This document shows positions 1-58,570 of a DNA stretch of 64,000 nucleotides, piece by piece. Under the pieces are notes generated by a model. It ran no database searches. It had not been told where the DNA came from and saw only the letters and a list, made by a program, of their open reading frames with translations. The number at the start of each line of letters is the position of its first letter. The first letter of the stretch is position 1. The translations under genes were made by a program, and so were the position numbers. This DNA comes from Caprella mutica (taxonomy: Eukaryota > Arthropoda > Malacostraca > Amphipoda > Caprellidae): assembly GCA_947561585.1 (NCBI GenBank), contig CANNZV010001444.1, positions 89,902 through 153,901 of the forward strand, read 5' to 3'.

Positions 1-452
1 CTAGGTCATAAGCCCCCCCGGGTCAAGAGCCCCCCGGTCATTAGCCCCCCCGGTCATGAGCCCCCCCGGTCACGAGCCCCCCCTGTTTTTAAATCCTTAT
101 TTACCTATACTATTTAATCCTTATTGACACTTTTGTAGTTCATTACTGAATAGACATAAAATATATGTATATCGGGGGGCGTGTCGCCCCCCGAACCCCC
201 TGCCAGGTCATTAAACAATCATGAACTGTGCAGTACAACAATCTAGCGGATACAACAAACTACATTAGCAACTCTCAGTTATTTCTATCTAAGTAATTCT
301 TCATTTGTTTATAACTAGGTAAATAAGGATTAAAAAAACAGGGAGGGGGGGGGGGCTCGTGACCGGGAGGGCTCATGACCTAGGGGGGCTCATGATCGGG
401 GGGGCTCGTGACCGGGGGGGCTCATGACCGGAGGGGCTCTTGACCGTATCCC
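1..452. mobile_element. Tandem-repeat fold-back element FB-1, left end cut by the window edge
   Basis: Inverted arms at 1-85 and about 345-452 consist of a 16-bp unit that reads GTCATGAGCCCCCCCG inward from each end. The right terminus, read inward on the minus strand, is GGGATACG followed by GTC-AAGAGCC-CCTCCG, which fits the GGTNNNNG-plus-unit plan of the other fold-back elements here. The core at 86-344 is AT-rich except for a GC hairpin at 172-194. The core is homologous, in reverse orientation, to the core of the element at 25794-26311, although the two arm repeats differ. No coding capacity is seen. The left terminus and left target copy lie outside the window. Confidence 0.75.
172..194. 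other. GC-rich perfect hairpin in the FB-1 core
   Basis: A 10-bp perfect stem (TCGGGGGGCG, 172-181, pairing with 185-194) closes a 3-nt TGT loop. The cognate hairpin in the related core at about 26119-26137 keeps its stem although bases around it have changed. This suggests the structure matters, for example in transposition or transcript processing, but that is inference. Confidence 0.7.
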
Positions 453-883
453 ATGTAGAAGGTATTGACACTGAAAAAAACAACTAGGTAGGTATGATGC
501 TTAAGTTAACATATAATAATCTAGGAAAATTAGTTTGGATATCAATTTACAAACTGGAAGGCAGTAATCAAAATTTATTATTATAAAAGTTATATACTGA
601 TAATCAGCTCTTCAAATAACTACCTATATAAAGCCACCAAACTATCAATCACCAATATTTTAGAATATTTAGGCAGACATTTATCAATTTATTAATGAAT
701 TCAATTAATAATCGATCGGCACCGATAATACTATTTAGTGCATATAACGCTATTGTTTGCACTTGAACTAAAATGGTATTGAGGAGCGTTCACATTCAAC
801 ACGTAACACACTTGAAACAAGATTTGAACTGAAAAGTGTTATGCGAATAAATTAGCTTTGAGGAAAGCATAACTTGCCACTTA
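453..883. other. AT-rich spacer, nothing recognised
   Basis: No open frame of note, no terminal repeats and no tandem structure could be seen here. Confidence 0.5.
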
Positions 884-1420
884 CTCATTTGATTGAACTC
901 ACATCTAAACTTTAAAAAAAAGTAGCACTAACTCTCATAGTAAGTTAATTTATACACCAGATAAATAAGATTAACAGTCTTTGTGGGTTACATTATCACA
1001 CTATGTCATAGTTGTTTTAACTCTTACCTAAACTTACAAAAATGTAGCGCCAACTCTCATAGTAAGTTAATTCATACACTGCAGAATACACTGGATTAAC
1101 AGTCTTTGTGGGTTACTATAACACACTATGTCATAGTTGATTTAACTCGCACCTAAAATTAAAAAAGTAGCGTAAACTCTCATAGTAAGTTAATTCATAT
1201 ACCAGATACATTGAAATGACAATCTTTGTGAGTAACTTCAACACACTATGTCCTAGTTGTTTTAACATATGTCTAAACTCCCAAAATGTAACTCCAACTC
1301 TCATAGTAAGTTGATTCAATCTATAAAATGATTTGAATTAACTATGTTTGGTGACACACACGTCATAGTTGTTTTGACACACATGAAAACATGATTATAG
1401 TCAAACCAACTCACGTAATA
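884..1420. repeat. 122-bp tandem repeat, about 4.5 copies
   Basis: The phrase ACTCTCATAGTAAGTT recurs at about 931, 1053, 1176 and 1297, spacings of 121-123 bp. Each copy also carries the phrases CTTTGTGGGTTAC and CACTATGTCATAGTTG, and copies are visibly diverged. A degenerate fifth copy runs to about 1420. The 62-codon minus-strand frame inside it is an accident of the repeat. Confidence 0.85.
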
Positions 1421-1659
1421 AATTGATTCAAAGCATAAATTGTTGACCCATTAAATATGAGTAAACTTTTTTCTCTGTGTACCAATAAAAGTGGTACTTA
1501 TTTCGAGTCATGTCTAAATAAGTACCGTTCAAAGACATAGAAAACGGAGACAATATTTTGTATTTATTTCACGGTAACTATCGAAAACATCAAAATTAGA
1601 ATCCAGATGAGGTTATTAGACGCAATTGGTTTAGAAATTCAACATGTCCCATTTTAGAG

Positions 1660-1851
1660 TAAGTTCCAAGTTATTGCATGGTACAGTATTTTCAAACATG
1701 TAAAATTCTTTATACAAATCTCTATGTACACATAATAATCATTATTTAACTTTCATTTCAATTGGTATTCATGATACCAATTTGAATAGAAGTTGAATAA
1801 TAATTATAACTATTATATTTTCTTTTTAACGTAACAATAACTTGGAACTTA
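1660..1851. mobile_element. Small palindromic MITE
   Basis: Terminal inverted repeats TAAGTTCCAAGTTATTG (1660-1676) and its complement (ending 1851) bracket a second internal palindrome around ATTGGTATTCATGATACCAAT (about 1764-1785). The whole 192 bp can fold into one hairpin. No coding capacity; superfamily not assigned. Confidence 0.65.
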
Positions 1852-4439
1852 GTACCCTTCTTCCAAAAATATTTCATAGAGCATAAAATCGCTGTTTGTT
1901 CAATGTAGCACTATAATTATAGAAATATTAGTATCTATTAATTTCTCACCTATAATAAGTGAGAGTTAAGATATGGTTGGATTTTAAAACCTTTAATAAA
2001 TTCACTATTTTAAACTTTCATCACAGTCATAAACACTGAAACACTTTAATAATAGGGTTATATATAGTACTCTAACTCTAAAATAATTTTTTTTCATTAT
2101 AACTCATAGAAAATGAGATATATAATGAAGGAGTGACAATTATAAATTTCTTGTTACTTTTCCTCGATTTAGTTAACGTTTGGTAATTAAATTGAGTTGT
2201 GATTTGGTAATTAAATTGGGGTATGCTTGTAGTATAACTTCCAGATTATTATAAATGGCTACCAATACCGAAAAAAAATAAGGTAGCTAAAAGTATACCT
2301 ATTTACCTAGTTCCCATTAAATTTACGATAATAAAAGGTAAAGTTCGTCCAGCTTCTTTGTTATTCTATTGAATCTAATAGAAATGTCGGACAGTGATGA
2401 TGAAGTGTTATTCTTCCTTAAATAAATAATTGCGAAGCGAATACTTGATCAATTTCTTTGTGTTAAGTGTGTTATGTTATGTAACCGTATGTTATACAAA
2501 TTTAATTAATTTCAAGATAAATTTTAATTTAGGGTAATCCTTTTAAGAATTCAAGTGATATATAATACTTATCTAAAATTATAATAGTTAATTTAAAGTC
2601 CATTGTTGAATCCTTATTATAATACTTATCAATATAAACATGTTAAATGCAGATTGTCAGTACAGTACTACTCCTCAATAATGAAGTCCTGTATAGTCTT
2701 GAGGAGTCCTGAGTAATGAACTTCCATGCATAATGATTAATGAACATACTCTGTTTAATCTACCATAAATTGGCCATCTGTTTACTAAGCATCTCTTGAC
2801 TTCTATATAATGAAGTAACCTCTATACAGGTAATATTTCTTATGAATTAGCAAATACGAAATAAATTTCTTTTCTGTTAACTGTTTTATGTTATATAACC
2901 TTAGCTCTACAAATTTGAAGAATTTCTAAGAAAAAATTAATTTAAAGTGGAGAGGACCTTTAACGATGAGCTAACATATATATTATTTTATATAATATAC
3001 AGGGTGTTTCAGATTTAAGGCAAACAGGTTTTGAATGTCAAATGAATCATCAATTTCGATCTTTGACTTTATGAAAGGTATGACATATTGCATCAAGTGT
3101 CATAGTCAAGGGCACAACTTGGAGTTTTCTACGCCGGACTTTCCCCCTACGATTAAAATATCAATATTTTGCGCTATTAAGTTATATTTTTGATAATACA
3201 AGCAATTAAAAGTTTTACACAGTAATAAAATTTTATTGTTACGATTTTAGGACATCTCAAGGACGGATATTTTGCTGCGCGGGCAACTTACCGTTAGTAC
3301 AATTCGCCGCGTGATTTATGCTGTACCGGCGTATACATCATTTATATTATAACATTTTATGAATAAGAAAAATATTAATTTCTTGACGTTCAAGACTGAC
3401 TTAAAATAGTAGGTGACAAATTTCAGTAGTGCATTTTAGTTGTTTCTTTTGTTGTAGTTCTTCACTTGTTCTTGGAAAATATAAGTATATAATTGTTATA
3501 TTTCGAGACTATTTTCTCCTCTACCTCTTTGATAGCCTGGCTTAGAATACCTTGATTTATGTATTTATCTGAAAACCAAGTTCTCCTACATACCAAAAAA
3601 AGACTTAAAGTTTTTTTCTTTCCAGTTAGAGAATGACCTGTAGATCAGTATCTATTGCCAGGGAAAATATTTGTCATAGTATCAACATAGTTTTCAGTTA
3701 AGCGAAATACACTCTTATATTCATGAGCGATCGTTACTGACGTTATTTCCCGATGATACCTTTAAAGAAAACCAAACAAATCCATGGTCCTGTACTATGG
3801 AAAATAAGTCAATACATCAAATTAAGCTGAATATATAACAAAGTGTGGTCTTGTAGGGCGGTCTCCAGGACACTTCAAAATATTGAAGTACGCCACCTCA
3901 CTTTTCGCCAGATTTAGCATACCAAACCGTAGTGTGAAAGTGGACACTATGAATAGTAGTGTGGTGGTGGGCATATGGAGTATAGTGTGGAGGTGGGCAC
4001 TTCAAGATAAAATCTCACACAATGACCTGTAGTGTGCAGTGCTACTTTAAAGTGCTAGTGCCCGATTTAACATACGGGCCAATGTCTGACTGCAGGTAAA
4101 ATGCTCTTTTGTGCCAAATAATTACTAGATTGGATAGTGGCTCCATATTGTAGCAATATTCGTCCTATAGAAAAGTCATGCACTTTTATTGCTGGGAGTT
4201 GTAGTCTAATTCTTTTGAACGTTACACAATCGAATCAGAATTGGAGGGCAATGCTATGTGAAATGGAGAGAGCACATTGGGGAATAGAATAAACTTCCTA
4301 GGCTTTTAAAACGTTCCAATCGAATCATTCAATTAACTCAATAAATAAATATTTAATTTAGTGACACAAGTAGAAATAAAAGAGCGGTGCATACTTAGAA
4401 TATGGTTTATTTTCATTATTTTTTTTACTTTTGAGATTG
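1852..4439. other. AT-rich non-coding region
   Basis: No gene recognised. A phrase CAGGGTGTTTCA at about 3000 resembles mariner-type MITE ends, but no partner end was found nearby. Around 3880-4075 there are loose repeats of AGTGTGG/GTGGGCA without clear period. Around 2660-2830 there are phrases such as CTCAATAATGAAGTCC that resemble pogo-type ends; too weak to call. Confidence 0.4.
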
Positions 4440-11314: not shown

Positions 11315-11629
11315 TTAAGTCTTAGGACACTAAAAGTGGTTACAAGAATTGGATTGAAATATTTTAGAAACTTTTTCAGAATTGTTCACCTGATTTTTTT
11401 TCGAAAATTGAGTGAAATCCTTCTTTGAAATATGTTTTTGAGAGGAACTATTCTGATAATTTACACTGCAGGTGAAGCTCGTACAACGGACAGTAATAAG
11501 TTGGACACCTCTATCAAAGGACAAAAACGAACCGTTCTTAGAGCCATGCAACTCCTACAACGATGTCTTTGAATTACATGATTTAACAAATATTATATAC
11601 GTCTACCAAGTATCTAGTAACGGTGTGCG

Positions 11630-13560
11630 GACGGAGTATCGAAAGACAGAGTATCGAAAGACAGAGTATCGAAAGACGGAGTATCGAAAGACAGAGTATC
11701 GAAAGACAGAGTATCGAAAGACAGAGTATCGAAAGAAAGAGTATCGAAAGACAAAGTATCGAAGACAAAGTATCGAAAGACAGAGTATCGAAAGACAGAG
11801 TATCGAAAGACAAAGTATCGAAGACAAAGTATCGAAAGACAAAGTATCGAAAGACAGTGTATCGAAAGACAGAGTATCGAAAGACAGAGTATCGAAAGAC
11901 AAAGTATCGAAAGACAGAGTATCGGAAGACAAAGTATCGAAAGACAGAGTATCGAAAGACAAAGTATCGAAGACAAAGTATCGAAAGACAAAGTATTGAA
12001 AGACAGAGTATCGAAAGACAAAGTATCGAAAGACAGAGTATCGAAAAACAAAGTATCGAAAGACAAATTATCGAAAGACAAAGTATCGAAAGACAGAGTA
12101 TTGAAAGACAGAGTATCGAAAGACAGAGTATCGAAAGACAAAGTGTCGAAAGACAAAGTATCAAAAGACAGAGTATCGAAAGACAGAGAATCGAAAGACA
12201 AAGTATCAAAAGACAAAGTATCGAGAGACAGAGTATCGAAAGAAAGAGTATCGAAAGAAAGAGTATCGAAAGACAGAGTATCGAAAGACAGAGTATCGAA
12301 AGACAGAGTATCGAAAGACAGAGTATCGAAAGACAGAGTATCGAAAGACAGAGTATCGAAAGACAAAGTATCAAAAGACAAAGTATCGAGAGACAGAGTA
12401 TCGAAAGAAAGAGTATCGAAAGAAAGAGTATCGAAAGACAAAGTATCGAAAGACAACGTATCGAAAGACAAAGTATCGAAAGACAAAGTATCGAAAGACA
12501 GAGTATCGAAAGACGAAGTATCGAAAGACAGAGTATCGAAAGACAAAGTATCGAAAGACAGAGTATCGAAAGACAAAGTATCGAAAGACAAAGTATCGAA
12601 AGACAGAGTATCGAAAGACAGAGTATCGAAAGACAAAGTATCGAAAGACAAAGTATCGAAAGACAGAGTATCGAAAGACAAAGTATCGAAAGACAGAGTA
12701 TCGAAAGACAAAGTATCGAAAGACAAAGTATCGAAAGACAGAGTATCGAAAGAAAGAGTATCGAAAGACAAAGTATCGAAGACAAAGTATCGAAAGACAG
12801 AGTATCGAAAGACAGAGTATCGAAAGACAAAGTATCGAAGACAAAGTATCGAAAGACAAAGTATCGAAAGACAGTGTATCGAAAGACAGAGTATCGAAAG
12901 ACAGAGTATCGAAAGACAAAGTATCGAAAGACAGAGTATCGGAAGACAAAGTATCGAAAGACAGAGTATCGAAAGACAAAGTATCGAAGACAAAGTATCG
13001 AAAGACAAAGTATTGAAAGACAGAGTATCGAAAGACAAAGTATCGAAAGACAGAGTATCGAAAAACAAAGTATCGAAAGACAAATTATCGAAAGACAAAG
13101 TATCGAAAGACAGAGTATTGAAAGACAGAGTATCGAAAGACAGAGTATCGAAAGACAAAGTGTCGAAAGACAAAGTATCAATAGACAGAGTATCGAAAGA
13201 CAGAGAATCGAAAGACAAAGTATCAAAAGACAAAGTATCGAGAGACAGAGTATCGAAAGAAAGAGTATCGAAAGAAAGAGTATCGAAAGACAGAGTATCG
13301 AAAGACAGAGTATCGAAAGACAGAGTATCGAAAGACAGAGTATCGAAAGACAGAGTATCGAAAGACAGAGTATCGAAAGACAAAGTATCAAAAGACAAAG
13401 TATCGAGAGACAGAGTATCGAAAGAAAGAGTATCGAAAGAAAGAGTATCGAAAGACAAAGTATCGAAACACAAAGTATCGAAAGACAGAGTATCGAAAGA
13501 CAGAGTATCGAAAGACAGAGTATCGAAAGACAGAGTATCGAAAGACAAAGTAGAGAAAGA
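11630..13560 (+). repeat. 15-bp minisatellite with a 1017-bp higher-order repeat
   Basis: About 128 copies of the 15-bp unit GACAGAGTATCGAAA. Rare variants (GACAGTGTATCG, CGGAAGAC, GTATTGAAAG, CAAATTATCG, GACAGAGAATCG) recur in the same order 1017 bp apart. Thus 11761-12777 is repeated at 12778 to about 13550 with only a few differences. Scattered 14-bp units (TCGAAGAC) shift the phase. Very long frames on both strands (up to about 700 codons) arise because 15 is a multiple of three and the unit lacks stops; they are not genes. Confidence 0.92.
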
Positions 13561-13674
13561 TATTGTAAAGAAAGAAAACGAAAGTATAGAAAAACAAAAA
13601 TATAAGGACATATAGCATAGAAAGAAAAATGTAAAAAAATTTGAGACCGTGTCTCCCTAGCCTTGTTCAATGAA

Positions 13675-14380
13675 GACAAAATGAGCCCACCTACATTTCA
13701 GCCCGAAACAATTGGGCTCAGGACAATTCGGCCACAAGACAATAATTTTTGGGCCCAAGATAATCGAGCACATAATACTATTACAATATTCTTCCCTCTT
13801 TTGTGTAATCTTGATATTCAGTATTTGTAAGTTTAAATTTATTTTAAACTTAATTTTGCTCTCTATTCTTGCTCTAAATTAAAAATAGTCAGGTGACGAT
13901 ATTGAGTTGTGTTGTGCATCGCTCGATCTGTACCACCCTTCAATTACGTTAGTGGTACGAAGCAGACCTTCCATGACACGGTTGAAGAAACTCCACACAC
14001 ATAGTTTAGAAAGAGAATTTTGTCTATTTCTTCTGAATGGCTTTCATATCGACAAATTAACCTTAATGAAGCTTTCAGTGAAAGTTAAATATTATGTATG
14101 CAGTGTTATTCTATGGGAAAGCAAAATCTTAATATTCCGGGTTGTTACTGAGTCCACTTTTATCAGAGTCTATGATATCAACTTAATTTGCTACTGTAAT
14201 AGAAAAGTAAAGCTTCTCTATATTGTCTGCTGTAACCATTTAATTATTTTTTTTTGGGATCAATTGTACTAGGCTCAATTGTATTGGGGCCCAATTGCCA
14301 CGGGCCCAAATATCTTCGGCTCAATTTTTGGTGAGTCCAATTGTCGGGACATATGCAATTGACTTGGGCCCAACTGTCGG
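13675..14380. mobile_element. Tandem-repeat fold-back element FB-3, nested in FB-2
   Basis: TCAATGAA at 13667-13674 and 14381-14388 is a candidate 8-bp target duplication. The right end read inward is CCGACAGTTGGGCCCAAG and the left is GACAAAATGAGCCC. Arms carry degenerate units of the type GAC-AATTGGG-CCCAG at 13690-13775 and 14262-14375. The usual GGTNNNN terminus is missing on both sides, so the boundaries are less secure than for its neighbours. The core is AT-rich without a recognised gene. Confidence 0.55.
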
Positions 14381-14985
14381 TCAATGAACAAAATTCATGC
14401 TTCAAGTTATGTATAACTAATATAATGTATGTTATTTTTAAAGAAAGATTTCTCCAATTGATTAATTTTTCATTCGATCAATTTTCTATTTGATCAATTC
14501 TCCATTTTTATAAATTCGATTGAATTTTCGATACTCTGTCTTTCGATACTTTGTTTTTCGACACTTTGTCCTTCAATACTCTGTATTTCGATACTTTGTC
14601 TTTCGATACTCTGTCCTAGTACCCTAGTAACACATTGGTTATATTCAGAGGTATTACAATTTACAATCAACACTTAATGTATAGTTTTTCAGATTTTCTG
14701 GAATTTGATTTTGTTGCCGCTTTATACACATTTTCATTGATTGATTTATTTTCACTTAATTCATAAATTATCTATTTTGGTTGCTATTATATAAATATTA
14801 TGAAAAATATATGATTTGTTATATTACATTTGTTTCTATATTAGTTTACATGTAAGTACTTTGATATGTTTACATTATACAAGTGAAGTCAAATAAAATA
14901 TGACCCTCTTAATCATTTTATATAGCACTTCAAGCGACAGTTATTCCTACCTTATTATTTGGTAAAATATTATAAGATTTTATTA

Positions 14986-16782: not shown

Positions 16783-18056
16783 GGATGTGTAAATTCATCT
16801 CGGTTAAATATATCGCAGTAAACTCATCGCCTGGTAAATTCATCACATGGTAAATTCATCGCTTGTTAAATTCATCGCATAATAAATTCATCGCATGGTA
16901 AATTCATCGCATAGTAAATTCTCGCATGGTAATTTCATCGCAGGTAAATTCATCGGATTGTAAATCCTCGGTTATATGAAACAGGAAGGTAGATAGATAA
17001 TACAAATAATAGAGAGGTAAATAATAGATGGCTTTTTTAAAAGACATTGTAACGTTTCAAATAATAAGGTTATTATCAGGTTATTTAAACTCAACGTTGA
17101 AGGTTTTATCATTTTTCAAGCTTTCGAATAGAAAGATTTCTATTCATTATCAGGAGAAAGGTGGAAAACCTCGACCTGACAATGAATTTAAGACCAATAG
17201 TTGTATGTTGGATACCGTCTTTCTATTTCAGCTATCTATCTTTTTGTTTATTATTATTAATTAATCTATAGAAATTTAAATATGAAACCAAAATTATAAA
17301 ATTTGATACTACTTATAGCTACTGTTGACAAAATTCATTCTCTACAAAAGATTCTACTTTCTTTATATTTGTAACAAGCTTTAGAGGAGCGATAAAAAAA
17401 AACGGTCAACCTCTATAAATATATGTTTATTTCTTTCTGTTCACTTTTCTGTATTTTATTAGTTCTACCATTATTATTTTTTTTTATTATTATTATTATT
17501 GTCATTTCTTAAATTTTTTTTTAGAACTAATAAAATACAGAAAAATGAACAGAAAGAAATAGACATATAGTTATAGAGGTTGACCGTTTTTTTTTCGCTC
17601 CTCTATAGCTTGTTACAAATATAAAGAAAGTAGAATATTTTGTAGAGAATGAATGTTGTCAACAGTAGCTATAGGCAAGGTTCATAGACTATAACAGGTT
17701 AGACGAATTGAATATTACAACAACTTCAAAGTGTTACTATGAACTGCATCCACCAAGTCTTCAAACAATTTTAAAAATTAATTAATATTTTTTATAAAAG
17801 CGCTATCAAAATAATTCTCCTACATGCTAATTAGTTATTAGGTATTAAATTTTTGAATAAAATATACTTTTTTAATTTCAGAGAACCTAGTCATAATTTA
17901 ACAAAGGTTAAAAGTTTCATTTTCTAAATCATCTCTGAAATTAAAAAGTTCATTTTATTAAATAATAACTGATAAGGTAATACTTTGAAGAACTATTTTG
18001 ATCAATCCTTACGAAAAATAAATAATTTTTAAAGTTAAAGTAGTACCTATACACTG

Positions 18057-18111
18057 TATAGGTACCTACCTATTAATTTTGTTCACAGTAATCAGTAGGT
18101 AGGTACCTATA
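18057..18111. repeat. Perfect 16-bp inverted repeat
   Basis: TATAGGTACCTACCTA (18057-18072) and its exact complement (18096-18111) are separated by 23 bp. The phrase TACCTACCTA is common through the window. Confidence 0.8.
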
Positions 18112-18300
18112 GGCTATAAAAATAAGTATAATTGCAGTGTCATGAAACTTATGTTACAAATAATTGACATTTTATATTATTTATTATTACAATATTATGT
18201 GTGTAATCATTTTAAGAACAGTAATAAAAGCTGATGAAAATGTTAACCAGTGCCCCATCATATTTAAACTCACAAGGTGTTTGTAGCATCCTGGCATTCG

Positions 18301-19040
18301 GGTTTTTATCAATTAACAAGCGAAAAAATAATAATACTGAAATAATTTCCTACCACTCGATAGATTATTGAATTTAAAAGAGTTCTAGCTATGGACCCAC
18401 ATTGTTAAATTTATAGTTTAAGAGATATTCAAAACGAAACACTGCAGTTTTTTTTCAAAGAGTGTAGCACACTTATTTTCGGAGTTCATTGCAGTTAGTT
18501 TATTATCCATTTGCAAGCGAAAAAATAATAATATTGGAATATTTTTATACTCTTCGATAGATTATTAAGTTTAAAAGAGTTCCGGCTGTGGACCCACATT
18601 GTTAAATTTATAGTTTAAGAGATATTCAAGACGAAAGTTCTTTCCATACACTGTTGCACACTAATCACCGGAGTGAATGGTCTTTACTCTTTAGTTTCTC
18701 ATTCATTTTTCCACGGAAACACAATTATCTTATTATAATTTGATATCATCTGATAGATTATTAAATATAGAAGAATTTTGAGTATGGAACTAGTCTCTAA
18801 AAAGGGATGGTTTAAGAGATATTTCAGACGAAAGTTCTTTCTATACACTGTTGCACACAAATTCTTGGAGAGAACGGTCATTAGTTTTTTATCCATTTTT
18901 CCGTGGAAACACATTTATATTATCATAGTTTTATATAATATTATAGGTTATTAAATTTAAAATAATTCTGAGTACGGAACCAGAATCGAAAAATGTATGG
19001 TTTAAGAGAAAACCCCATATATCTCACTGTTTCACAACTC
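18301..19040. repeat. About 195-bp tandem repeat, four copies, inside the hAT element
   Basis: Copies start near 18301, 18497, 18693 and 18883. Each holds GATAGATTATT or a variant, AGTTTAAGAGATATTC or a variant, and TACACTGTTGCACAC in most copies. Copies 1-2 and 3-4 are closer to each other, suggesting stepwise duplication. Confidence 0.8.
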
Positions 19041-19408
19041 ATTTTTCAAAAACCGCCATATGATCACATCGTACCTCTGGCATTTTTTTCCAGACTGGTT
19101 AACCTGTTATAGTCTATGAACCTTGGCTATAGGTATTATCAAATTTTATAATTTTGGTTTCATATTTCGATTTTTATAGATTAATTAATAATAATAAACA
19201 AAAAGATAGATAGCTGAAATAGAAAGACGGTATCCAACATACAACTTATTGGTCATAAAATTCATTGTCAGGTCGAGGTTTTCCACCTTTCTCCTGATGA
19301 TGAATAGAAATCTTTCTATTCGAAAGCTTGAAACCTGATAAAACTTTTAACGTTGAGTTTAGATAACCTCATAATAATATGGTTTAAATCTTTTCCATCA
19401 AATAATAA

Positions 19409-21128
19409 GGTGCACCGACAATTGGGCCCAGGACTTTTGGGCCGAGGACAATTGAGCCCAGGACAATTGGCCCACAGGAAAATTTGACCCCAGGACAATA
19501 ATTGGGCTCCAAGACAATTGGCCCACGATAATTGGACCCCCAAACAATTGAGTTCTGAAAAAAATTAGGCAGAAGACACAATAACGAAGGGTATTTCTCA
19601 GTTATCTCTGAGCAAATTATATTATAATGAAATAAATAAATATTTTTTCATTGTTTTGTGGATACTGTTTTTAAAGAAAAATATTAATCAAATAACATAA
19701 ATTTATTGAAACCTGACTTTTTACAATTATGTTGGTGAATAAAATTCAGCAATACCTGAAAGAATTGCTTAAAATGCTTTAAAAGAAACGCTCAATATCC
19801 ATCTAGCATCTCTGCCTCTTGTTTTGAATCTTAATGCATTTCTTTTCACTGTAAATTTTTCGAATGACTGTCTTAAGATTATCTTCTCTTTAATGAAGAA
19901 AAGAGGTAGAGATAATAGAAATAACTAGGAAATAGTTTTGTCAGTAGCCACGATATATTGGAAAAATTTGTTATTTCAAATAAGAAGTTAAAATAAAATG
20001 TTGCGGGAGATAACTGGAAAGTTATTAAAAAAGTGTTACTTTGTTATTACTAGTGTAATGACAAAATTATCTTTGATATATGTTATATATTCTCTAAATA
20101 TGTGTTATATTTTTTTAATTCGATTGATATACTTGATAAGGTATATAATTAGCAATCCCGTTAAATCACATTTGGATACTAATCTCATGTCTCATTGTAA
20201 TGAAAATCTTTGTAGTATATAAAAAAATTCTATTAACTTGAATCATGACCTGTGGATCCATTGTGTAGTGTACATCGTCTGACAAAGTTGTCTCAGGAAT
20301 ATTTAGTTAATAAATAGGGTAACTTTTAAAGATTTTCGTTACATTGAACTAAGAAAAATTGAACAGATGTAGGTATAAAATGAGATTGTGAGAATCCATT
20401 TTGTAATAATAATATATAAAACTCTTCGATATTGAACACTGAACAGTGAAAAGGTTTCAACAAATTCACATTAACTTTGAATAAACTTGTATGTTCCGAT
20501 AATATCTGTATGTATTGGTGGGCCACGGCCTTCTTTAAATACCCATATTCTTATATTCTATTGGCTACATCATAACTCATTCGATATGCAGGAGTTCACT
20601 ATTGAGGTATACTTTAACTAGGAAATTTGTTGCTTACCTGACCTATCTCAGAACAGAAAATTATCGCAGTTTAAAAGAATAATAGTATTTTTTCATGAAA
20701 TGAATACGTTCTATTAAAAAAATATATTATTCATAACAAGAATATTTATTTCATATTAGGAATATTCTTTATTTTAATTATGGTCAAGACTATATATTTT
20801 TATGCAAAACGCATATTGTCACATGCCTAGTTATTACGGTTATTAAGATTCTTTAATTAAGTTAATACAGCCCAACCAACCATGACACGTACATTGTCAA
20901 CATGGGCACTAGACGGTTAGATGGACAAGAGATGGCAGACTGAAAAGTAGCCCAGAAATTACATTGGGATAATGTGGTTTTCCATTCTCGATGAATGTTA
21001 CCTTGGGAGAAAGTTGGTTCAATGTCAGGAAAACATTCCATTGAATTGTCATGTTGGCCCAACCTGATTACTATATAGCGTATCAACATTATCAACCCAA
21101 TTGCCGGGGCCCAATTGGATATGTTGCC
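19409..21128. mobile_element. Tandem-repeat fold-back element FB-5, within FB-4
   Basis: The left end GGTGCACC is followed by 15-bp units GAC-AATTGGG-CCCAG up to about 19555. The proposed right end, read inward from 21128, is GGCAACAT followed by two units with GGGCCCC. Flanks AAATAATAA (19400-19408) and AAAGAAAAC (21129-21137) agree at 6 of 9 positions. The right arm is very short. Between the arms there is no recognisable gene; frames of 66-77 codons at 19998-20222, 20326-20526 and 20862-21095 have no identifiable domain. A pair of inverted GTAAYGAAAATCTTT phrases sits near 20200 and 20335. Confidence 0.55.
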
Positions 21129-21775
21129 AAAGAAAACCGTTAATATTAAAAATTAAATTCTATCGTAACAGCTGCACAAACAATATATCTAAATTACTTT
21201 TAAAAAGATAAATTGTAAGCAATACCTCTTAAATAATTAGAAAACCTGGTTCCCATTTAGTGAGGCACTTATGCTTTGCTGATCAAATTTTCAAAGAGGT
21301 GTATCATTTACAGTTATGTTGTTGTTCAAACTATGGGTAGCTAACCAAATACGTTATTTGAGAAATAATATAAATTTAAATTAAAGAAAAATATGCATAA
21401 CTAATAAATAATAAATCAACGCAATTACCCACATATTTAAATATTTTATAGTAATTGTATGATATACATGTAAAAATTATATGACATTCTATTACTAAAA
21501 ATCCAATCTTTTTAAATATACTAACAGCTCAGATTCGTACAAATAAGTTACCCTAATCCAGCGAAAAGTAAATTTAGTAAGGTCGGCGAAATTATTTGCG
21601 AAGAGTTTATTTTATCTTATCAATTTAATTTTATAATGTACCATGCGATGAATTTACCATGCGATGAATTTACCATGCAATGTATTTATCATACGATGAA
21701 TTTGCCATGCGATGAATTCTACCGGCAATGAATTTACCGGCGATGAATTTACTGCGATGAATTTACCGGATACCG

Positions 21776-25020: not shown

Positions 25021-25754
25021 CGTTTGCGGACTATTGGCCGAAAGGCAATTATGAACTGCAGCCTCTGTTAAATTAATATATTATCTTTAATTCCATGAAA
25101 TTGAAATTTATTATATAAAAAGGAAAAAAATTGTTATGATGTACATAATGTGAATCCATATTATGAACTGCAAACTTACAAGCCTGTTAAAAATAACGGG
25201 TCATCATCAATACCAATTTTGGTAAATATTTCATTTAGGAACGTAAACTGTAGGAACCCATCCAAATACCCCCTTCCTAGTTACCGCTCCTAAGTCAATA
25301 AAGGACGTGAACTAGAAATTGGATCGGTTCCTAGTTCCAGTCCTAAAATGAAATAGGGATGTAAACTAAGAATTTACCCTAATTTTTTACCCGTTATTAG
25401 GCTATATTTAATGAATTAAATTTAAATCAAATTTAAATTAGAACACCAAATAAAAAAATAAACAAAACTACGGTATTATTAGTTCTCAACAATTTGTATT
25501 TATTCATAATCATTGTTTTCATAATAATTATTGGATATTATATTATATACAGTTAAAATATTATTATATACAGTTATCATATTGTTATACTGCATAAAGT
25601 TAGTATTTGTTATAATATAAAGTAATATCAGTATTACATTTTTTGTTTGCCAATATTACAATTTCACTTCAACCAAATAAAAGTTTTTCTGCCAAATGTC
25701 CGTTCGGCCAAATGTCCTTCGGTCAAATGTCTTTCGACCAAATGTCAGTATTCT
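25021..25754. mobile_element. Tandem-repeat fold-back element FB-6
   Basis: The right arm (25683-25746), read inward, is GAC-ATTTGGT-CGAAA, GAC-ATTTGAC-CGAAG, GAC-ATTTGGC-CGAAC, preceded by a degenerate terminus AGAATACT. The left arm is a single decayed unit at 25029-25048 (GAC-TATTGGC-CGAAAGG) after CGTTTGCG. The unit code is the same as in FB-11 at 58.1 kb, so these are two members of one subfamily. The core carries a palindromic MITE. Target duplications are too diverged to be sure. Confidence 0.5.
25190..25400. mobile_element. Palindromic MITE
   Basis: ATAACGGGT near 25193 and ACCCGTTAT ending 25397 are inverted. The match continues inward through TAAATATTTCATTTAGGA and CCTAAAATGAAATAGGGA type phrases with several mismatches. 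About 210 bp, no coding capacity. Confidence 0.6.
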
Positions 25755-25793: not shown

Positions 25794-26311
25794 TCTCAAT
25801 AGCCCGATGCTCCACTAGTCCGACGCCCCACTAGTCCAACTGTTCCATCTTTCTGTATTATTTTTCGTTTTATTTTTTGATTAAAATAAAAAATATGATT
25901 AAATAGGTATACTCAATTAATAACTAATCTAAATGATAAAATAATTTTTAATTTCTCTCATTTTCGAAATATGATATCACTCTTTTATTTTATTTTATTT
26001 CTAATATTAATTTATGATTCAATCCCTCACTTGATTTCATCATTTAATGTAGTTTGTTGTATCCGCTAGTTTGTTGTACTGCACACTTCATGATTGTTTA
26101 ATGACATGGCAGGGGGGTTCGGGGGGCGGCACGCCCCCAAATATACATATACTTTATGCTAAATTAGTAATAAACTACAAAAGTGTCAGACAAATGGGGT
26201 GTCGGACTACTGGGGCGTTGGACTACTGGGGCGTTGGACTACTGGGGCGTCGGACTACTGGGGCGTCGGACTAGTGGGGCGTCGGACTAGTTGGGCGTCG
26301 GGCTAATGCCC
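25794..26311. mobile_element. Tandem-repeat fold-back element FB-7, sharing the FB-1 core
   Basis: Arms of the 16-bp unit GTC-CGACGCC-CCACTA run at 25802-25846 and, inverted, 26196-26303. The right terminus read inward is GGGCATTA; the left aligned position is TCTCAATA. The core from 26045 to 26190 matches 115-265 of FB-1 in reverse orientation at roughly 90 percent by eye, including the GC hairpin. The arm repeats of the two elements are different. Flanking 9-mers agree at only 5 of 9 positions, suggesting an old insertion. Confidence 0.7.
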
Positions 26312-28194: not shown

Positions 28195-28835
28195 GGTGCT
28201 AGAACAATTCGTCACGGACAATGAGTCGTGGACAATTCGTCGTGCACAATTCGTCGCGGACAATTAATCGCCATATTTTCCATTTTGCCATATATCATAT
28301 CATTAATTAGTTTCATATTTCATTTCGCAATTTATTCGCCATATTTTCCATTTCTTTCAAATCTTCAAATTAATAAATGATATAACATGAACAAAACTTG
28401 GTATCTATGATACAAAAGATTTTTCTGTTGAATAAGTAATCTTCCATGATTTTGAAATTAATTATTTCACATTTCAAAAGAAACTATTTAGTAGAGAGTC
28501 TATTAATTAATATTAATAGACTAATTAAATTAATAGACTCTCTACTAAATTAAAGAAAAAGAAAGAAATAAAAGATGATCAAAAAGAAACTATTAAACAT
28601 TTGAAATAAATAAATAGAAACAATTATTATTAAATAATAACAGGACATAATTATTCGTATCAACAATACGAATAATACATACAAACCTAAATTTCTTTGA
28701 TCAAACCAACTCAAAATCTTTGAATTATATTTGAAGAAATAAAAAATGGTATAAAATTGTGTTGAATTTGTGTTAAAAATATATAAATACGAATATAAAA
28801 AAAATAGAAAAGTGTACTCGAATTGTCTGGACACG
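28195..28835. mobile_element. Tandem-repeat fold-back element FB-8
   Basis: The left end is GGTGCTAG followed by four 14-bp units of type GAC-AATTCGT-CGCG (28203-28265). The right end read inward is CGTGTCCA then GAC-AATTCGA. Flanks ACTTGGAAT (28186-28194) and ATTTGGAGT (28836-28844) match at 7 of 9 positions. The arms are unequal (four units against one). The AT-rich core contains a perfect 22-bp inverted repeat. A 94-codon minus-strand frame at 28550-28834 is AT-driven and not recognisable. Confidence 0.65.
28487..28549. repeat. Perfect 22-bp inverted repeat
   Basis: Arms 28487-28508 and 28528-28549 (TTTAGTAGAGAGTCTATTAA plus two more bases, and the exact complement) flank a 19-bp A/T loop inside FB-8. 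Confidence 0.85.
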
Positions 28836-29098: not shown

Positions 29099-30121
29099 GG
29101 TTCTAGGTAAATTGCTCGAAAACAATTATTGCTCGAAAGACAATTGCTCGAAAACAATTGCTCGAAAAACAATTGCTCGAAAACAATTGCTCGAAAGACA
29201 ATTGCTCGAAAACAATTGCTCGAAAAACAATTGCTCGAATGAACAATTGCTCGAAAGAACAATTGCTCGAAAGACAATTGCTCGAAAAACAATTGCTCGA
29301 ACGAACAATTGCTCGAATGAACAATTGCTCGAATTATCAAATTGCTCGAATGAACAAAATTGCTCGAATTATAAAATTGCACAGTTTTCGATTTTATAAC
29401 AGTCAGTTATTCATGAAGTGGAGCTGCACCTAACAATGTTTGTTTCTTTTTAGTAATTGATCATTAATCATTCTATAAATGTTTTTAATTATTACTCATT
29501 CTGCATAATCTTTTTTTAGACCGTTTGTGTCATCTTGTATGTATCATGTCAATCATGTGTCAAAAAAAAATTCATAGATTTATTAAAACTCTGCCATAAC
29601 TTTGAGTTATTTCACCTATTGAGGTGCCACATACAGATATGCTAGTAATAAAAAAGTTTTCGGATTTATGATAAAAAAAAAACATGAATAGAAGTGATTC
29701 ACTACATGATTTTAATTGACATGTTACATAAGAGAGGACACAAACGGTCTAAAAAAAGATTATGCAGAATGAGTAATAATTAAATTATTTATAGAATGAT
29801 TAATGATCAATTACTAAAAAGAAACAAACATTGTTAGGTGCAGCTCCACTTCATGTATAACTGACTTTTATAAAATCGAAAACTGTGCAATTTTATAATT
29901 TGAGCGATTTTTTCATTCGAACAATTTGATAATTCAAGCAATTGTTCATTCGAGCAATTGTTCGTTCGAGCAATTGTTTTTCGAGCAATTGTCTTTCGAG
30001 CAATTGTCTTTCGAGCAATTGTTCTTTCGAGCAATTGTTCATTCGAGCAATTGTTTTTCGAGCAATTGTTTTCGAGCAATTGTCTTTCGAGCAATTGTTT
30101 TCGAGCAATTTACCGGCTACC
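29099..30121. mobile_element. Tandem-repeat fold-back element FB-9 (type example)
   Basis: The best-preserved member. A perfect 9-bp target duplication AAGGAACAC (29090-29098, 30122-30130) flanks termini GGTTCTAG and, inverted, GGTAGCCG. Each leads into GTA-AATTGCT-CGAAA and then arrays of the 15-bp unit GAC-AATTGCT-CGAAA (29106-29372 and 29905-30112). Inside the arrays a further 170 bp of non-repetitive sequence is also inverted (about 29374-29545 against 29735-29890), leaving a short loop. Length 1023 bp. Many short frames on both strands come from the 15-bp unit and are not genes. Confidence 0.93.
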
Positions 30122-52241: not shown

Positions 52242-53519
52242 GGTACACGGAAAACTGCCAGGCGGAAGACTGCCAGGCGGAAAACTGCCGAAGCTGAAAA
52301 CTGCCAGGCGGAAAGCTGCCAGTTATTTACTGGCAATTTAATGACTTTAGTCAATAATAACAATTTAATTTATAAAAAGGTTGTTCGCCCAACGTTAAGG
52401 AGTTAAGGAACATTCATTTTTACTTAGTATACAAAACAAAAATAATAATTAAATGTAGACAATTTATTAGAAAAATATGTAAATATATAAATATTAAAGA
52501 TATAAATGAAATATAATATAGAAACTAAAATCGTTCTTAGGAAAGGTTTAAAATACTAAGAGAAAAAACAAAGAATTATTAGTATTAGGGACAGAGTACA
52601 ATTTATTTATTTACACAACGCATCTTTAAATTATCAGTTCATAACGCGCTAACTGTCTAATTTTTTTTATAATTTGAGAATTGAACAAGCCTTCAAGCTT
52701 AATATTCGCTTGTACTCATTATAAAACAAATTCGATCTGTGTTTGTGAAATATTTAGAATTTGCAACACAACATGTATGGTTATTCAACTGCTATTACCT
52801 ACCAATAGTACCTAAATCTCTGACAATTTCACTCGATCGAATTGGATTGTATACATTAATTAATAATACTTGTTATATATAAAGGAATATTGTACAAATG
52901 AAGGAGTTGTGCAATTGACATGGAGAATAAAAATGTAAATATAATAAATATTGAACATACATATATGTTGATTTAACATACACTTAATTTATTGTATAAT
53001 TTGAGAATAATTAATTATGAGAATATCTAATTAGCTATTAATCACAAATCAGTACGCGGGGTTTAACGTTTGGTGTTGAACCAAATGTTATATTGCTGAC
53101 ATTAATATAGGAAATTGAAAACAAGGGACTATATACGTAACTTAACATGTTTTTTTAAATATACTTGACATAGCAAATAAGTATAAAAGGGTAATTGTTA
53201 CTTCCTTATGTGTACTGGAGTTTGATTGATTGTGTGTTTAATAAGGTACCTTTTTTGAAATATAATTTTCCTTTTGATATTAACTAATCCAATATCTATA
53301 TTGTTATTACTCTAAAAATGAATGTCCCCTTAATCCCTTAACGAAGGGCTGACGCCGTTTTTTTAATTAAAATGTTCTTTGAATGAATTAATAACTAAAT
53401 AATAAAAGTAAAAAAATACATAGATTCCCATTAAGTGACTGGCAGTTTTCCGCCTGGCAGTTTTCCGCATGGCAGTTTTCCGCTTCGGCAGTTTTCCGCC
53501 TGGCAGTTTTCCGGACACC
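52242..53519. mobile_element. Tandem-repeat fold-back element FB-10, inside a Tc1 terminal repeat
   Basis: The left end is GGTACACG then GAA-AACTGCC-AGGCG; the right end, inverted, is GGTGTCCG then the same unit. Arrays of 15-bp units at 52249-52322 and 53443-53512. A variant unit GACTGCCAGGCGGAA shows the GAC-N7 frame directly. Just inside each array AAGGAACATTC and, inverted, AAGGGGACATTC are also matched. Flanks are GGACAAAAT and GACAAGAAC; compared with the other Tc1 end, about 9 bp are missing at the junction, so a clean target duplication is not visible. The core is AT-rich and non-coding. Confidence 0.8.
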
Positions 53520-53814: not shown

Positions 53815-54000
53815 CTATTCATCCTCAAGAAATGTCCACAATTCTTCCGCATTTGTTGAGTTTCCCCTCTGATACAGGGGGGAAATTGTCGATGCGAGAG
53901 ATTTCAATTGCCACATGAAGGTCCAAGAGGATTGTGCAACATATTGTGGCTTCATAAGCAGTATGGAGTTGTTGATTCCAAACTGAAGAATGGTAGACTT
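53815..54000 (-). pseudogene. Inverted copy of the Tc1 transposase C-terminus
   Basis: On the minus strand blocks NQQLHTAYEA and, near 53818-53850, AEELWTFLEDE match the C-terminal catalytic part of Tc1 transposases (QDNxPxH and NxIENLW motifs). The second catalytic aspartate position reads Q here. It duplicates the plus-strand segment at 54520-54670 with divergence, in reverse orientation. Confidence 0.55.
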
Positions 54001-54671
54001 CCCAAAGCATTGCTGAGAGAAGATCATGCAACTCCTCAAAGTAGCTTGCAAGATAGTTTTAATATTTCTGGTCAAATTTTTCGTGAGATAGATGTCATGT
54101 CTGGTGGTACGGTGTCCCAGTCTACTTTTTTGCTTCTACTTCAACAAGTTGTTTTGCAATCATTTGACCCTGCATCGAAGCTTTAAACTCTAAAAAGAAA
54201 CGGAAAGTGTTACTTGTGTTTTATCATGAGCATGTTGTTCGGTCGATTGAACAGTGGTCGATAGTATGTACATTCTAGTGATGAATGAAAGAAAATTATA
54301 AATCTTTGGTTATAATGGGAAAGTACGAATAAACCATAAAGTTGGGGAAATGTTAACTCTGAACTGCGTCAAGAAAACAGAAGTTTGGAGGAGGTAATAA
54401 TTTCTTCTGCTGGACCTGGTCCCATTGTTTGTCCGCACAGAGGAGTAATTGTAGAAGTATAAAACAGCTCTTCCGTCAACATACTCTCCCCTATCAGCAA
54501 GCAGCTGACCCTCAACCACCGAGTTTCAAGCAGGACAACGTACCCTACTATTCAGATAAAAAAGTAAGGACCCTATTAGATGATGAATTAATTGCTCAAA
54601 TGAGCTTGCCTTCACAGAGAAGAAACACATCAAATGTGGAAAAATTATGGACATTTCTGGAAGATGAATAG
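53950..54671 (+). pseudogene. Decayed Tc1-like transposase
   Basis: Blocks in order across frames: an N-terminal paired-like DNA-binding region with GRLPKALLRE and VSQSTFLLLLQQ (about 53990-54165); the first catalytic aspartate in SSDE (about 54275-54285) followed by FGYNGKVRINH; and a C-terminal block FKQDNVPYYSDKKVRTLL then VEKLWTFLEDE (to 54671). The second catalytic aspartate (QDN) and the final glutamate (VEKLW) are still there. Several stops and frameshifts interrupt it, so it cannot be made as one protein. The family, Tc1 branch of Tc1/mariner, is supported by the element ends. Confidence 0.65.
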
Positions 54672-55033
54672 AAGATGGATAACTCCTTCATATTGTGCAA
54701 AATTAGTAGAATTTTATGGTAGAAGATTTATTGGAGTGATATAGCTAATAATTATTCACAAAATAATAATTATTAATAGCCAATATCCTGGAATATTTCA
54801 AGGCTTATGATGGCTACCCTTAACTTTTGACCAGAGCAAAATTTATTGTTTGAGGTGAAATATGGAACAATTGCTAGAATATTTGTCCAAATGCTTAGAA
54901 ACTTCATATGAATACATATGAGTTCTGTATGAAAATACGTGCAAAATTTCAATAATGTGTGTTTTGTACTTTTTACGAAATTAAAGATTTAGATAACTTG
55001 TTTTTGCCTACCCTTATATTTTGTCCACTACTG

Positions 55034-55544
55034 CACGTTCTCTCTCGCCAATTAAATAAAACACTAAATAGTGGTGTGAAAATATCATTTTCCCAAGATC
55101 TTGGGGTTATTTAATTAAGTCTTCTTCATTATCGGGCATCAAGCCATTCAATTTATGCTTTCGGTTAATTCTGAATAAAGAAGTTTGTGCTTCCTCGAAG
55201 TTTTGGAAAGTCTTTCTTAAATATTTTTCAAGCGTTAAATTTGCGTCGATAGGACAAAATGTATAAGGTATTCATAGAATATTTCACTTAAACTGTTGAA
55301 TACAATGATATTAATGATTTTATTTGTTATCTTATTTGAACTTTTTACACACTTTATATAGTAAACATTGTGTTCAATTTAGTCTATCAATAGTAGGGCT
55401 GAAGGAATTAAAGATGTGGTGCTCAGTAACTAAAATATGAACACTATAGCATTACAAAATTGTTTGAAAAATGATTTCTCATTGAAAAATAAAACATCTA
55501 AAATTTGAGATCTCATTTACTCAAAAAAAAACTATTTATTCAAA
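55034..55544. other. AT-rich spacer
   Basis: Nothing recognised. Confidence 0.4.
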
Positions 55545-55800
55545 ATTAAAGTGAATATTTATTATGAAAATGATCATTCAAAATAAAAAATATTCATTCG
55601 CAATAAAAATATTCGTAAATATTCATTTGCAATGAAAATATTCATTCAAAATAAAAATATTCATTCGAAATAAAAATATTCATTCAAAATAAAAATATTC
55701 ATTCAAAATAAAAATATTCATTCAAAATAAAAATATTCATTCAAAATAAAAATATTCATTCAAAATAAAAATATTCATTCAAAATAAATATATTCATTCT
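55545..55800. repeat. 19-bp AT-rich minisatellite (CATTCAAAATAAAAATATT), about 12 copies
   Basis: The last eight copies are almost identical; earlier copies carry ATTCGCAAT or ATTTGCAATG variants. Confidence 0.88.
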
Positions 55801-57689
55801 TTTTTTAATGTAAATGGAGTACGTATTTCCATTATATCAAGTAAGCAATTCCAACTGTTCCAAAGTGAAGTTGTTTAAGTTGCAGCTCTTCTCGTACACC
55901 GCAGCTAAGATCATCTCAAAGTGGTTAGAGCCAAACTTTAGGCGTAAAATTAGAAATAAATGTATCTGCACCTGCAGTTTGAATAAACGATCTATATGTT
56001 GATAAGTTGCATGTAAAACTGACTTCATTATCAAAGTTCAATACTTGCAATGAAATATGTCGTCTACAGTTTCTTCTCAGTTGATTTTCATTGCATAACT
56101 TAAAATTGTTATAACCTTGTGTTTGAACATCTTGTAGATATTTTAAAGAATAAAATTTTGCTGCGACTCCTTAATTTTAAGATAAGCAACTGAGAGAATT
56201 GAAAGAATTTCCTGGCCATCACAGTGAACATTGAACACCATTATGTGTAAAATTAGTGAAAATATGAAGATTAGTAGGAGATGTTCTTTGGGTGTTTATA
56301 GCTGCATCATTGCCCCAATATTGTCACGATGTAATTCCAATATTGTTGCCTTCAGAAGCTTCATTTCATTCTATCCTGATTCCTAAAGCTGTGTGTGGTG
56401 AATGGAAGAGAGGGGAGTAGCGTACTTTGTGCCCCAAACTGTTCTAATTTGGATTATATATTCTCATTTTTACAATGTTTATAATTTTGTTAACACGTTT
56501 TGCAGTTGTAGAAAATAGTTCATGGGTTATGCTCTTCAACTAATATGTCTTATATATTCATTTTGTGTTGGGTAGGCTCGTAGGCTTCTTTTACTATCAC
56601 TTCTTCATTTTTCTCGTCCATCCATGAGTTCAGTCACTTATACTTGTGTTGCTTTCCGTCACATTCCTCTGTAAGTGACTGCATTCATATAGTATCTTTT
56701 CTACTACCAACAGCTTTGTCACTGACTAGTGGTAGGTGACTCTGTCCGAGGTATCACTTTCCATTCTGACTGCTTCTTGCATGGGTCCCTTATATTTTTT
56801 TTTGTTGCAAAGATATGGCCCATGGTTTTAAAAACGTTAAAACCCATCTAAAATGATTTCCATGAGGCAGAATAGCTACAGTAGTGAAAATAAAGGTTTA
56901 TATTGCGTGACGTTATCATCAGAACGCAATAAAATGTAAATTTAGTTGTTCATCATCTTTGGTAATTAGATCAATATATTACTGTTTAAAAATAACTCTA
57001 TATTAAAAATAAACTGATGAATTTCTACTATTTTACTCGGCATATTTTTCTGAAATTTGACTTGTCATGGTTAGGAGTTTGACTGATGTGATGTTTGTGT
57101 TTATTAACAATTAAGTTATATTGTACTTCCAGTCCAGACCTGTATCTTCATAGCTATTGGCCTTTCAACGCTACGCAAGACCATTTTCATAAAGGCTTCA
57201 TTCAACATTGCCAACTTGTTACACTTACGCCCCATCACCCTCTGGCTTTACTCATAAAGCACACTCGTCCACCAAGTATCTATAAGCCTTCATCAGGACT
57301 CTTCTGTATTCAAAATACAAAAGTTGACTCCATATCTCAATATCAGCTGCCACAACCCATCAAAAATTATCCAAAATCTCCTCTTCCACCCCACACATAC
57401 CACGAGTAATCTCACCAAACAATCATCAATATGCAATTCAAACTCAGACTATTGCTACTTGCTGTGAAGAGCAACACTGCTATCCATTCAGAATATTAGC
57501 ATATCTCTCCTTATCCTCTCTTACCCTGGAAAGCCCAACAAACATGAGAGGCTTATTTCGCTGAGAATATACATTTTCTCTTGTGTTGCTTGACATGAGT
57601 TGCTGAAAATCCAGGACTTTTGATTATTGTTTATGAGGTGTTTAAAAAGTATGAATGAAAATAATACAATACGTTTTGTTCAATTTAAT
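55801..57689. other. AT-rich non-coding region with a dispersed-repeat fragment
   Basis: 56595-56825 belongs to the dispersed repeat described at 40045. A 104-codon frame at 57095-57409, rich in P, H and L, has no recognisable domain. It could be an old coding remnant but I do not support it. Confidence 0.4.
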
Positions 57690-57835
57690 TGAATACCTCT
57701 TGCCTAATAACTCTCACCTCTTGCTTGGCTATTCCCACCACGTGCCTGATAATTCCCATATCGTGCCTGCTAATTCCAATCTCGTGCCTGATAATTCCCA
57801 CTTCGTGCCTGATAATTCTCACTTCGTGCATGTAG
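57690..57835. repeat. 21-bp tandem repeat (TCGTGCCTGATAATTCCCAC), about 6 copies
   Basis: Copies vary at GCTTGGCTATTCCCACC, CCTGCTAATTCCAATC and similar. No inverted partner array was found, so it is not assigned to the fold-back family. Confidence 0.8.
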
Positions 57836-58080
57836 TGTGTAGATTACAACAGGTATACCCAATGTATTCAGGTAGATTGGGGGAAGTATACCCAAAGAAT
57901 GTTATGTGGATAACCTTATTTTTCACACCACTCCTTCCTCTTTCAGTAAAAATCCACTTAAGTTCTCAAAAAATGTTAGAATTGCAATAACATAAATAGA
58001 TGCATTGTGAGCTATTTCGTTGTTATATGAATCGTCTCTATTGATCATTAAGAGCAAAATAGTTTCGTGAACTTTCAAAT

Positions 58081-58570
58081 CGTGTGCGCACCTTTGACCG
58101 AGTGACATTTGGCCTAACGGACATTGGGCCGAAGTGACAATTGGCCGAAAGACATTTGGCCGGAAAATATTTGGCCAAACTGAAATTTGACCGACCGGTC
58201 CTCTGACCGAAAGGCGTATAAATTATCATATAAATTCCTATATTAACATTGAATGAAATTTTTATAATATAATATAAATTCTTATAATAATATTATATAA
58301 TAATAAATATATGCTTATTCCTTTGTAAACGATGCAAGCGAATCCATTAAGCAGTTACTTTCCTTTTTCCCGTGTCGTCTCGATGAAAAAAAAAATCATG
58401 ATTATATTATTTTTTTAATATGAGTATCAAAAATGTTAAATACACAATATATATACACACCAAATGACTATACTAATTCTTTATTTATTGGCCAAATAAT
58501 TAAAATAACTCTAAACTAACAGCCAAATGTCCGTTCGGTCAAACGTCTTTCGGCCAAATAACCGTATACC
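58081..58570. mobile_element. Tandem-repeat fold-back element FB-11
   Basis: The right terminus read inward is GGTATACG then GTT-ATTTGGC-CGAAA, GAC-GTTTGAC-CGAAC. The left is CGTGTGCG then CAC-CTTTGAC-CGAGT, GAC-ATTTGGC-CTAAC. The 15-bp unit is GAC-ATTTGGC-CGAAA, same code as FB-6. Flanks CTTTCAAAT and CTTACATAC agree at 6 of 9 positions. The core of about 300 bp is AT-rich and non-coding. Confidence 0.7.

Follow-up and report, generated by a model that had tools for sequence, protein, structure and literature searches.

Eleven fold-back elements of Caprella mutica as probable non-autonomous members of several Mutator-like transposon families with private terminal repeats

Tm1 of Meloidogyne (Phantom/Foldback) ends in motifs of 7 base pairs (bp), different at the two ends, followed by GGA and 1-9 units of mostly 14 bp; its duplications are mostly 9 bp, and its transposase is of the FLYWCH-MULE (Mutator-like element) type with best matches from pea aphid (PMC3169594). 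Muta5 of Aedes aegypti combines an 8-bp terminal motif, nine 15-bp subterminal repeats, and 8-9-bp duplications; the same report finds FLYWCH in 13 of 14 Muta families and heterogeneous interiors in derivatives (PMC5225508). Phantom elements have a FLYWCH-MULE transposase and 8-10-bp duplications, with a minisatellite after the transposase gene in aphid (PMC6446971, PMC3169594). In Galileo of Drosophila (P superfamily), the tips are conserved between subfamilies and the internal sites are family-specific; its THAP domain binds cognate ends, and binding is weak or absent on some other subfamilies (PMC3688188). Here, we characterize eleven fold-back elements (E1-E11) with tandemly repeated inverted ends in a 64,000-nucleotide stretch of the amphipod Caprella mutica (contig CANNZV010001444.1, positions 89902-153901; hereafter the window), and we compare them with copies in the whole genome (903 Mb in 7200 contigs).

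The elements follow a common plan with a spacing that is fixed genome-wide, they insert with target duplications, and seven families built on this plan enclose a MULE transposase gene of their own. We therefore regard the eleven elements, with a probability of roughly 0.8, as non-autonomous members of several Phantom-type Mutator-like (FLYWCH + MULE) families, whose unit tags would serve as a per-family address. On re-reading the window, all listed arrays were present, with inverted partners for most and units of 14-16 bp. The elements fall into nine unit families (A-I; families J-N were first met elsewhere in the genome), since E3 and E5 share one unit and E6 and E11 share another. Window positions are given below, with no strand assigned.

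E1, 1..452: family H, unit GTCATGAGCCCCCCCG, octamers GGGCGTAG / GGGATACG; duplication 9/9, ATGTAGAAG, seen once the bases left of the window were read
E2, 11622..14623: family A, unit GACAGAGTATCGAAA, octamers GGTGTGCG / GGTACTAG; duplication 8/8, CTAGTAAC, at 11614-11621 and 14624-14631; arrays unequal, ~129 unit copies left and 6 right
E3, 13675..14380: family D, inside E2; 8-bp duplication TCAATGAA; clear octamer not found
E4, 16783..21774: family F, unit GTAAATTCATCGCATG; left end GGATGT, taken as shortened GGATCAGT; right octamer GGTATCCG; duplication AAGAAGTGG / GAGAAGTGG, 7/8 (8/9 by eye)
E5, 19409..21128: family D, inside E4; left octamer GGTGCACC, right end weak; duplication weak, 6/9
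E6, 25021..25754: family C, unit GACATTTGGCCGAAA, ends CGTTTGCG / AGAATACT; duplication weak, 6/9
E7, 25794..26311: family I, unit GTCCGACGCCCCACTA; duplication weak, 5/9
E8, 28195..28835: family E, unit GACAATTCGTCGCG, octamers GGTGCTAG / CGTGTCCA; duplication 7/9; right end weak, right array of one unit
E9, 29099..30121: family B, unit GACAATTGCTCGAAA, octamers GGTTCTAG / GGTAGCCG; duplication 9/9, AAGGAACAC; nearly the whole length self-complementary (86%)
E10, 52242..53519: family G, unit GAAAACTGCCAGGCG, octamers GGTACACG / GGTGTCCG; duplication weak, 6/8
E11, 58081..58570: family C, octamers CGTGTGCG / GGTATACG; duplication weak, 6/9

The original prediction, which had read these repeats as inverted ends aligned in one phase, thus stood for the arrays, the unit length, the phase, and the duplications as a group, and several edges and units were corrected. 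By an eye count, E1 begins ~56 bp before the left edge of the window rather than at position 1; because its array continues beyond the window edge, NNNNCTAG was rejected as its left octamer. The true termini of E7 lie ~8 bp further out, judged by family I copies elsewhere, so its proposed phasing fails. The unit GAC-TGCCAGG-CGGAA assigned to E10 gave way to GAAAACTGCCAGGCG after phasing, and E3, which was listed with the shared terminus, has the duplication without the octamer.

A Pfam MULE search of the genome gave at least 59 places. Thirty loci were fetched, of which 11 were extended beyond 1.5 kb, and a further one (M45) had both ends already in reach. Ten of these 12 loci lie in elements with correctly facing arrays, and seven repeat families enclose a MULE transposase (PF10551), three of them known from the window: B (E9), F (E4), and G (E10). 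The enclosed loci are as follows.

Family B array: MULE locus M34
Family F array: MULE loci M32 and M33
Family G array: MULE locus M38
Family J array: MULE locus M48
Family K array: MULE loci M37 and M45
Family L array: MULE loci M36 and M54
Family M array: MULE locus M49

Seven complete MULE-bearing copies measure 2.7-5.8 kb, with duplications of 9/9 in three, 8/8 in one, 8/9 in two, and 7/9 in one. The link to the window elements extends to their ends: the octamers of M34 are both octamers of E9, M32 and E4 have the right octamer in common, and M38 and E10 have the unit and one octamer in common. M33 and M32 have identical left octamers. The Pfam MULE match is over the cut-off in families B, F, J, K, L, and M, and FLYWCH (PF04500) is over the cut-off in B, F, K, and L and below it in J. 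The prediction of a mobile-element group with one end design was thus borne out, and the transposase-bearing copies proved to be MULEs, one of the types it had offered. Five further MULE genes (L035, L043, L044, L057, and L058) had no convincing 14-17-bp array within 1.5 kb; the MULE of L058 shares 66% identity with the transposase of family B.

The length of the duplications alone is compatible with hAT, P/Galileo, and Merlin, and a similar layout exists in Galileo. Membership in such another superfamily is nevertheless very improbable, because MULE genes lie inside families with both ends and duplications; it is refuted for B, F, J, K, L, and M, and less completely for G. In the family G locus M38 (contig C2268, L038 / L126), inverted arrays stand on both sides of the MULE, and a THAP segment (4.3e-8) lies directly before it, where other families carry FLYWCH. 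The five next-best THAP relatives (L127-L131) showed no match to MULE proteins within 1.5 kb. The M38 THAP, known from a single copy, is possibly a domain swap or a captured fragment.

The original prediction had one transposase reading the spacing and flanks of all elements. A single enzyme of this kind could mobilize all families through the octamer, the spacing, and the conserved unit positions while the core drifts freely, and the octamer and register are indeed common to many families. However, each of the seven array families has inside it a MULE gene distinct from the others; transposase identities are 31-49% from family to family, compared with 88-97% for the within-family pairs observed. 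Among the ten array-enclosed loci, no transposase family occurs with two array families, nor the reverse, nested elements aside. One transposase shared by all families is therefore unlikely, since the families' own transposases are so diverged and each private core comes with its own transposase. Core variation within arrays is also lower than linker variation, and E9, E4, and E10 keep the core of a MULE-bearing copy, which would argue against free drift; together, these points leave the one-transposase explanation a low probability.

The duplications were assessed by an edge-shift test on nine elements (E1 and E3 left out), with edges at the originally predicted coordinates except that the left edge of E4 was moved by one base; these edges agree with the repeat phase. 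The score was 23.3 at zero shift and 2.9-5.6 at shifts of 1-6 bases, as the prediction of 8-9-bp duplications would have it. Cross-paired flanks gave 4.2 expected, and 23.3 was matched by 1 of 100000 permutations, which may include the true pairing. As a group, the nine testable elements have 8-9-bp duplications exactly outside the 8-bp terminal motif. Taken singly, only E2, E4, E8, and E9 of these nine have strong duplications, and for E7, 13% of random pairs match as well as its flanks do. Apart from the listed elements, an ungapped scan of the window for periods of 13-17 yielded AT-rich runs, a single two-copy stretch at 37468, and nothing else.

Among 19 window ends (E3 and the left end of E1 excluded), nine are perfect GGTNNNNG and 14 match it at ≥3 of 4 letters. 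The predicted enrichment of this terminus held in the genome and not for the octamer by itself: the 35-place pattern GGTNNNNG-GAC-N7-CG-N3-GAC-N7-CG occurred 686 times against five for the reversed control, whereas GGTNNNNG alone, which is common in the window, was not enriched there before tandem starts (7 of 189 sites against 9.1 expected). With an octamer-unit spacer one N shorter (three Ns instead of four), the genome count was 6 against 9. The pattern with the octamer had no matches in viral contigs. For the first 100 of the 686 places, families and facing pairs were read out. Rough script rules assigned 95 of them (N, 55; A, 28; C-like, 12) and left five as others, and the octamers were family-specific. 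Of the pairs that these places formed within 6 kb, 12 were facing, one was same-strand, and none was back-to-back; each of the 12 facing pairs joined two ends of a single family, exactly one of them CTAG-type. A family H scan, whose pattern required the left end to be GTAG-type and the right end TACG-type, covered 36 loci and gave 17 distinct copies with both ends, in which the 9-bp duplication was exact in 11, had one mismatch in 4, and had two mismatches in 2 (for the 2 of 17 with two possible right ends, the better match was taken). The facing pairs, each with one CTAG end, and the end types of family H indicate that the two ends are handed. Family F departs from the CTAG rule, with octamers GGATCAGT / GGTATCCG, and both ends of E10 are CG-type.

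The shared register predicted for the units was clear. In register, the nine window units have a mean pairwise identity of 0.498, compared with 0.255 (standard deviation 0.020) for rotations, and 0 of 20000 rotations reach it; the six families with better-fixed edges give 0.562 versus 0.261. For 13 families (without I, whose phase fails, and with J-N from the genome), the values are 0.545 and 0.265, again with 0 of 20000, and J-N by themselves give 0.592, reached by 2 of 20000 rotations. The skeleton over families is approximately GA[C/A]AAYTSNY[C/A]S, with G1, A4, and T7 best kept, followed by C/A3, C/A11, G/C12, A2, and A5. Twelve further tandem units from the window were compared with this skeleton, and none stood clearly above its shuffles (best 9/14 versus a mean of 7.4). 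Judged in this way, units A, F, G, H, and I do not stand out singly (p 0.05 to 0.43), so the case for the skeleton rests on the joint register. The word GAC-N7-CGAAA alone was rejected as diagnostic because 23 bacterial loci carry such tandem stretches; these have 0 of 33 matches with a GGTNNNNG edge and 0-1 inverted core copies per locus. The Tm1 Motif C unit CGATTCAGTATCGC was also rejected as a skeleton relative, being no better than chance (ranks 2/28, 9/28, and 3/30).

The middle seven bases, which had been proposed as free to change, are not free: positions 4, 5, and 7 are largely conserved over the 13 families, and the core varies little inside arrays. Conservation of positions 5-10 is ~90% within and 35% between families. 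Inside arrays, linkers diverge more than cores do: the consensus match is 0.91 at positions 4-10, ~0.86-0.91 by group at positions 1-12, and 0.80 from 13 to the end, and insertions number 6 at positions 4-9 (E5 and E9) and 44 elsewhere. These data bear on the view that the arrays are ordinary minisatellites grown by slippage in terminal repeats, with a family likeness due to descent only and no role in recognition. In its favor, array length differs strongly (129 versus 6 copies in E2), homogenization alone is able to keep arrays uniform, and Muta1 derivatives with truncated repeats exist (PMC5225508). This view is unlikely, given that cores vary less than linkers and that the register to the octamer is fixed across highly diverged families.

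The E1 interior (125..267, + strand) and the E7 interior (26045..26188, - strand) are one shared segment, 90% identical over 144 bp, which is high-copy in the genome. All 30 loci fetched for the E1 version of the segment had the family H inner flank downstream, two with an exceptional shape (L086 is rearranged and L071 is adjoined by another element's end). Among 12 loci fetched for the E7 version, family I arrays were present in five (L114, L115, L117, L118, and L124) and family H in six (L116 and L119-L123), and L125 is a mixed copy with an I interior and an H end. Units H and I differ at 7 of 16 positions, and their interiors at ~14 of 144. An array swapped in place was therefore rejected for E1/E7; the interior common to H and I and the mixed copy L125 point to exchange of interiors and not to array replacement as such. 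Nesting also occurs: at C3840 (L106+L032+L107), an E9-type family B element lies in a MULE-bearing family F element. The array adjoining the best MULE match (L032) was accordingly rejected as the array of the enclosing element, since it belongs to the nested family B element and the encloser is F.

Several observations weigh against the proposed FLYWCH + MULE assignment or narrow it. Nine of the 12 loci were picked for an array already in sight; of the three picked without one, M33 and M34 have arrays. The array is one-sided in M33 and M54, and the left edges of M32 and M49 were set with the duplication in view. M52, the third of those picked without an array in sight, has none of this kind, and its MULE lies within another inverted repeat (~290 bp, 79-82%, overlapping offsets; C6722, L112+L052+L113); at M39 (L039), no array faces correctly and the one there points the wrong way. 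The family M open frame showed no FLYWCH, and the MULE of M38 is broken and preceded by the THAP segment. Similarity between transposases tracks similarity between units only weakly (Mantel p 0.02 to 0.18, five codings, 7 families). Pfam on 20 open frames or pieces found no such transposase in the window, and four open frames scanned inside E4 or across its left edge matched neither MULE nor FLYWCH. No MULE link was made for families A, C, D, E, H, and I, which are filed by octamer, register, and duplications. Uniform cores inside arrays could also come from homogenization alone.

From the outside in, the proposed plan comprises an 8-9-bp target duplication, an 8-bp motif (~GGTNNNNG), tandem 14-17-bp units in register, and a variable interior. 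MULE transposases cut at element ends and bind subterminal sites. The octamers, in most cases one CTAG-type and one CG-type per element, may be the shared ends for cutting and pairing; the tandem units may be repeated sites for the N-terminal DNA-binding domain of the family's own transposase, so that the variable core would act as the family address and copies carrying it would be mobilized. Array uniformity probably arises from unequal exchange and from copying between the two arms. By analogy with the Galileo THAP domain, FLYWCH would be the part that binds the arrays, and many site copies may give the transposase its specificity, as the Galileo authors propose (PMC3688188).

Elements of this kind are already published as Tm1, Muta1/Muta5, and Phantom; new here are a register common to the families, the pairs of ends, and the matching of repeat family to transposase. 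The original remark that the design was not described can hold for the cross-family register only, given the published combination of end motif, 13-15-bp repeats, and 8-9-bp duplications in Tm1 and Muta5. Tm1 resembles the present families in its end motif, tandem units, duplications, FLYWCH-MULE transposase, and handed ends, but the available text gives one unit consensus per species (PMC3169594), whereas many unit families occur here. Cross-family register and fixed end pairs, both seen here, are not stated for Muta1/Muta5 in the portion available (PMC5225508). With Phantom, compared through descriptions in later papers, the present families share the MULE domain inside, FLYWCH, and 8-9-bp duplications. 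Galileo works alike, but its transposase is P-type with THAP and not MULE. The Galileo duplication is 7 bp. Galileo membership was rejected in view of the MULE domain and the 8-9-bp duplications of the tested families, and the likeness to Drosophila Foldback (FB/NOF) is limited to the fold-back layout. In the portions of the literature searched, with Phantom itself covered by later papers, no description of cross-family register or repeat-to-transposase pairing was found; six unit words searched as text matched 6 papers, with the same word occurring once in each of the five listed.

The window also contains a BEL/Pao long terminal repeat retrotransposon with a Peptidase_A17 domain, whose insertion is recent judging from its 99.9% identical terminal repeats (over 1061 bp); a separate inverted-repeat family resembling miniature inverted-repeat transposable elements (MITE-like), ~82-94% identical and partly nested in E4; six 18-35-bp minisatellite arrays that lack a separate inverted partner and served among the controls for the unit skeleton; and a further inverted repeat.

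41422-49336: BEL/Pao retrotransposon; terminal repeats 41422-42482 and 48276-49336, long open frame 42695-47242
7516-7771, 10284-10440, 14949-15074, 17071-17374, 19126-19385, and 52111-52191: MITE-like copies
4435-5252, 6595-6994, 33355-33684, 34679-35326, 40482-40730, and 55521-55799: minisatellite arrays
53522-55006: inverted repeat, ~390 bp at 78%

A tentative extension, to which we give somewhat less than even odds, is a grammar of exchangeable addresses, with handed octamers, a common skeleton, and a core matched to a transposase domain, in which new families would arise when core and domain change together. The address would lie mainly in positions 6 and 8-10 and the linker, interiors would be swapped, and in one copy perhaps also the DNA-binding domain (THAP for FLYWCH). 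If this is true, sister transposons would stop mobilizing each other. One genome with seven transposase/repeat-family pairs on one skeleton would allow site and domain to be swapped pair by pair, making the role of the tag as an address testable, and the arrangement would account for fold-back elements that look unrelated yet share one machinery.

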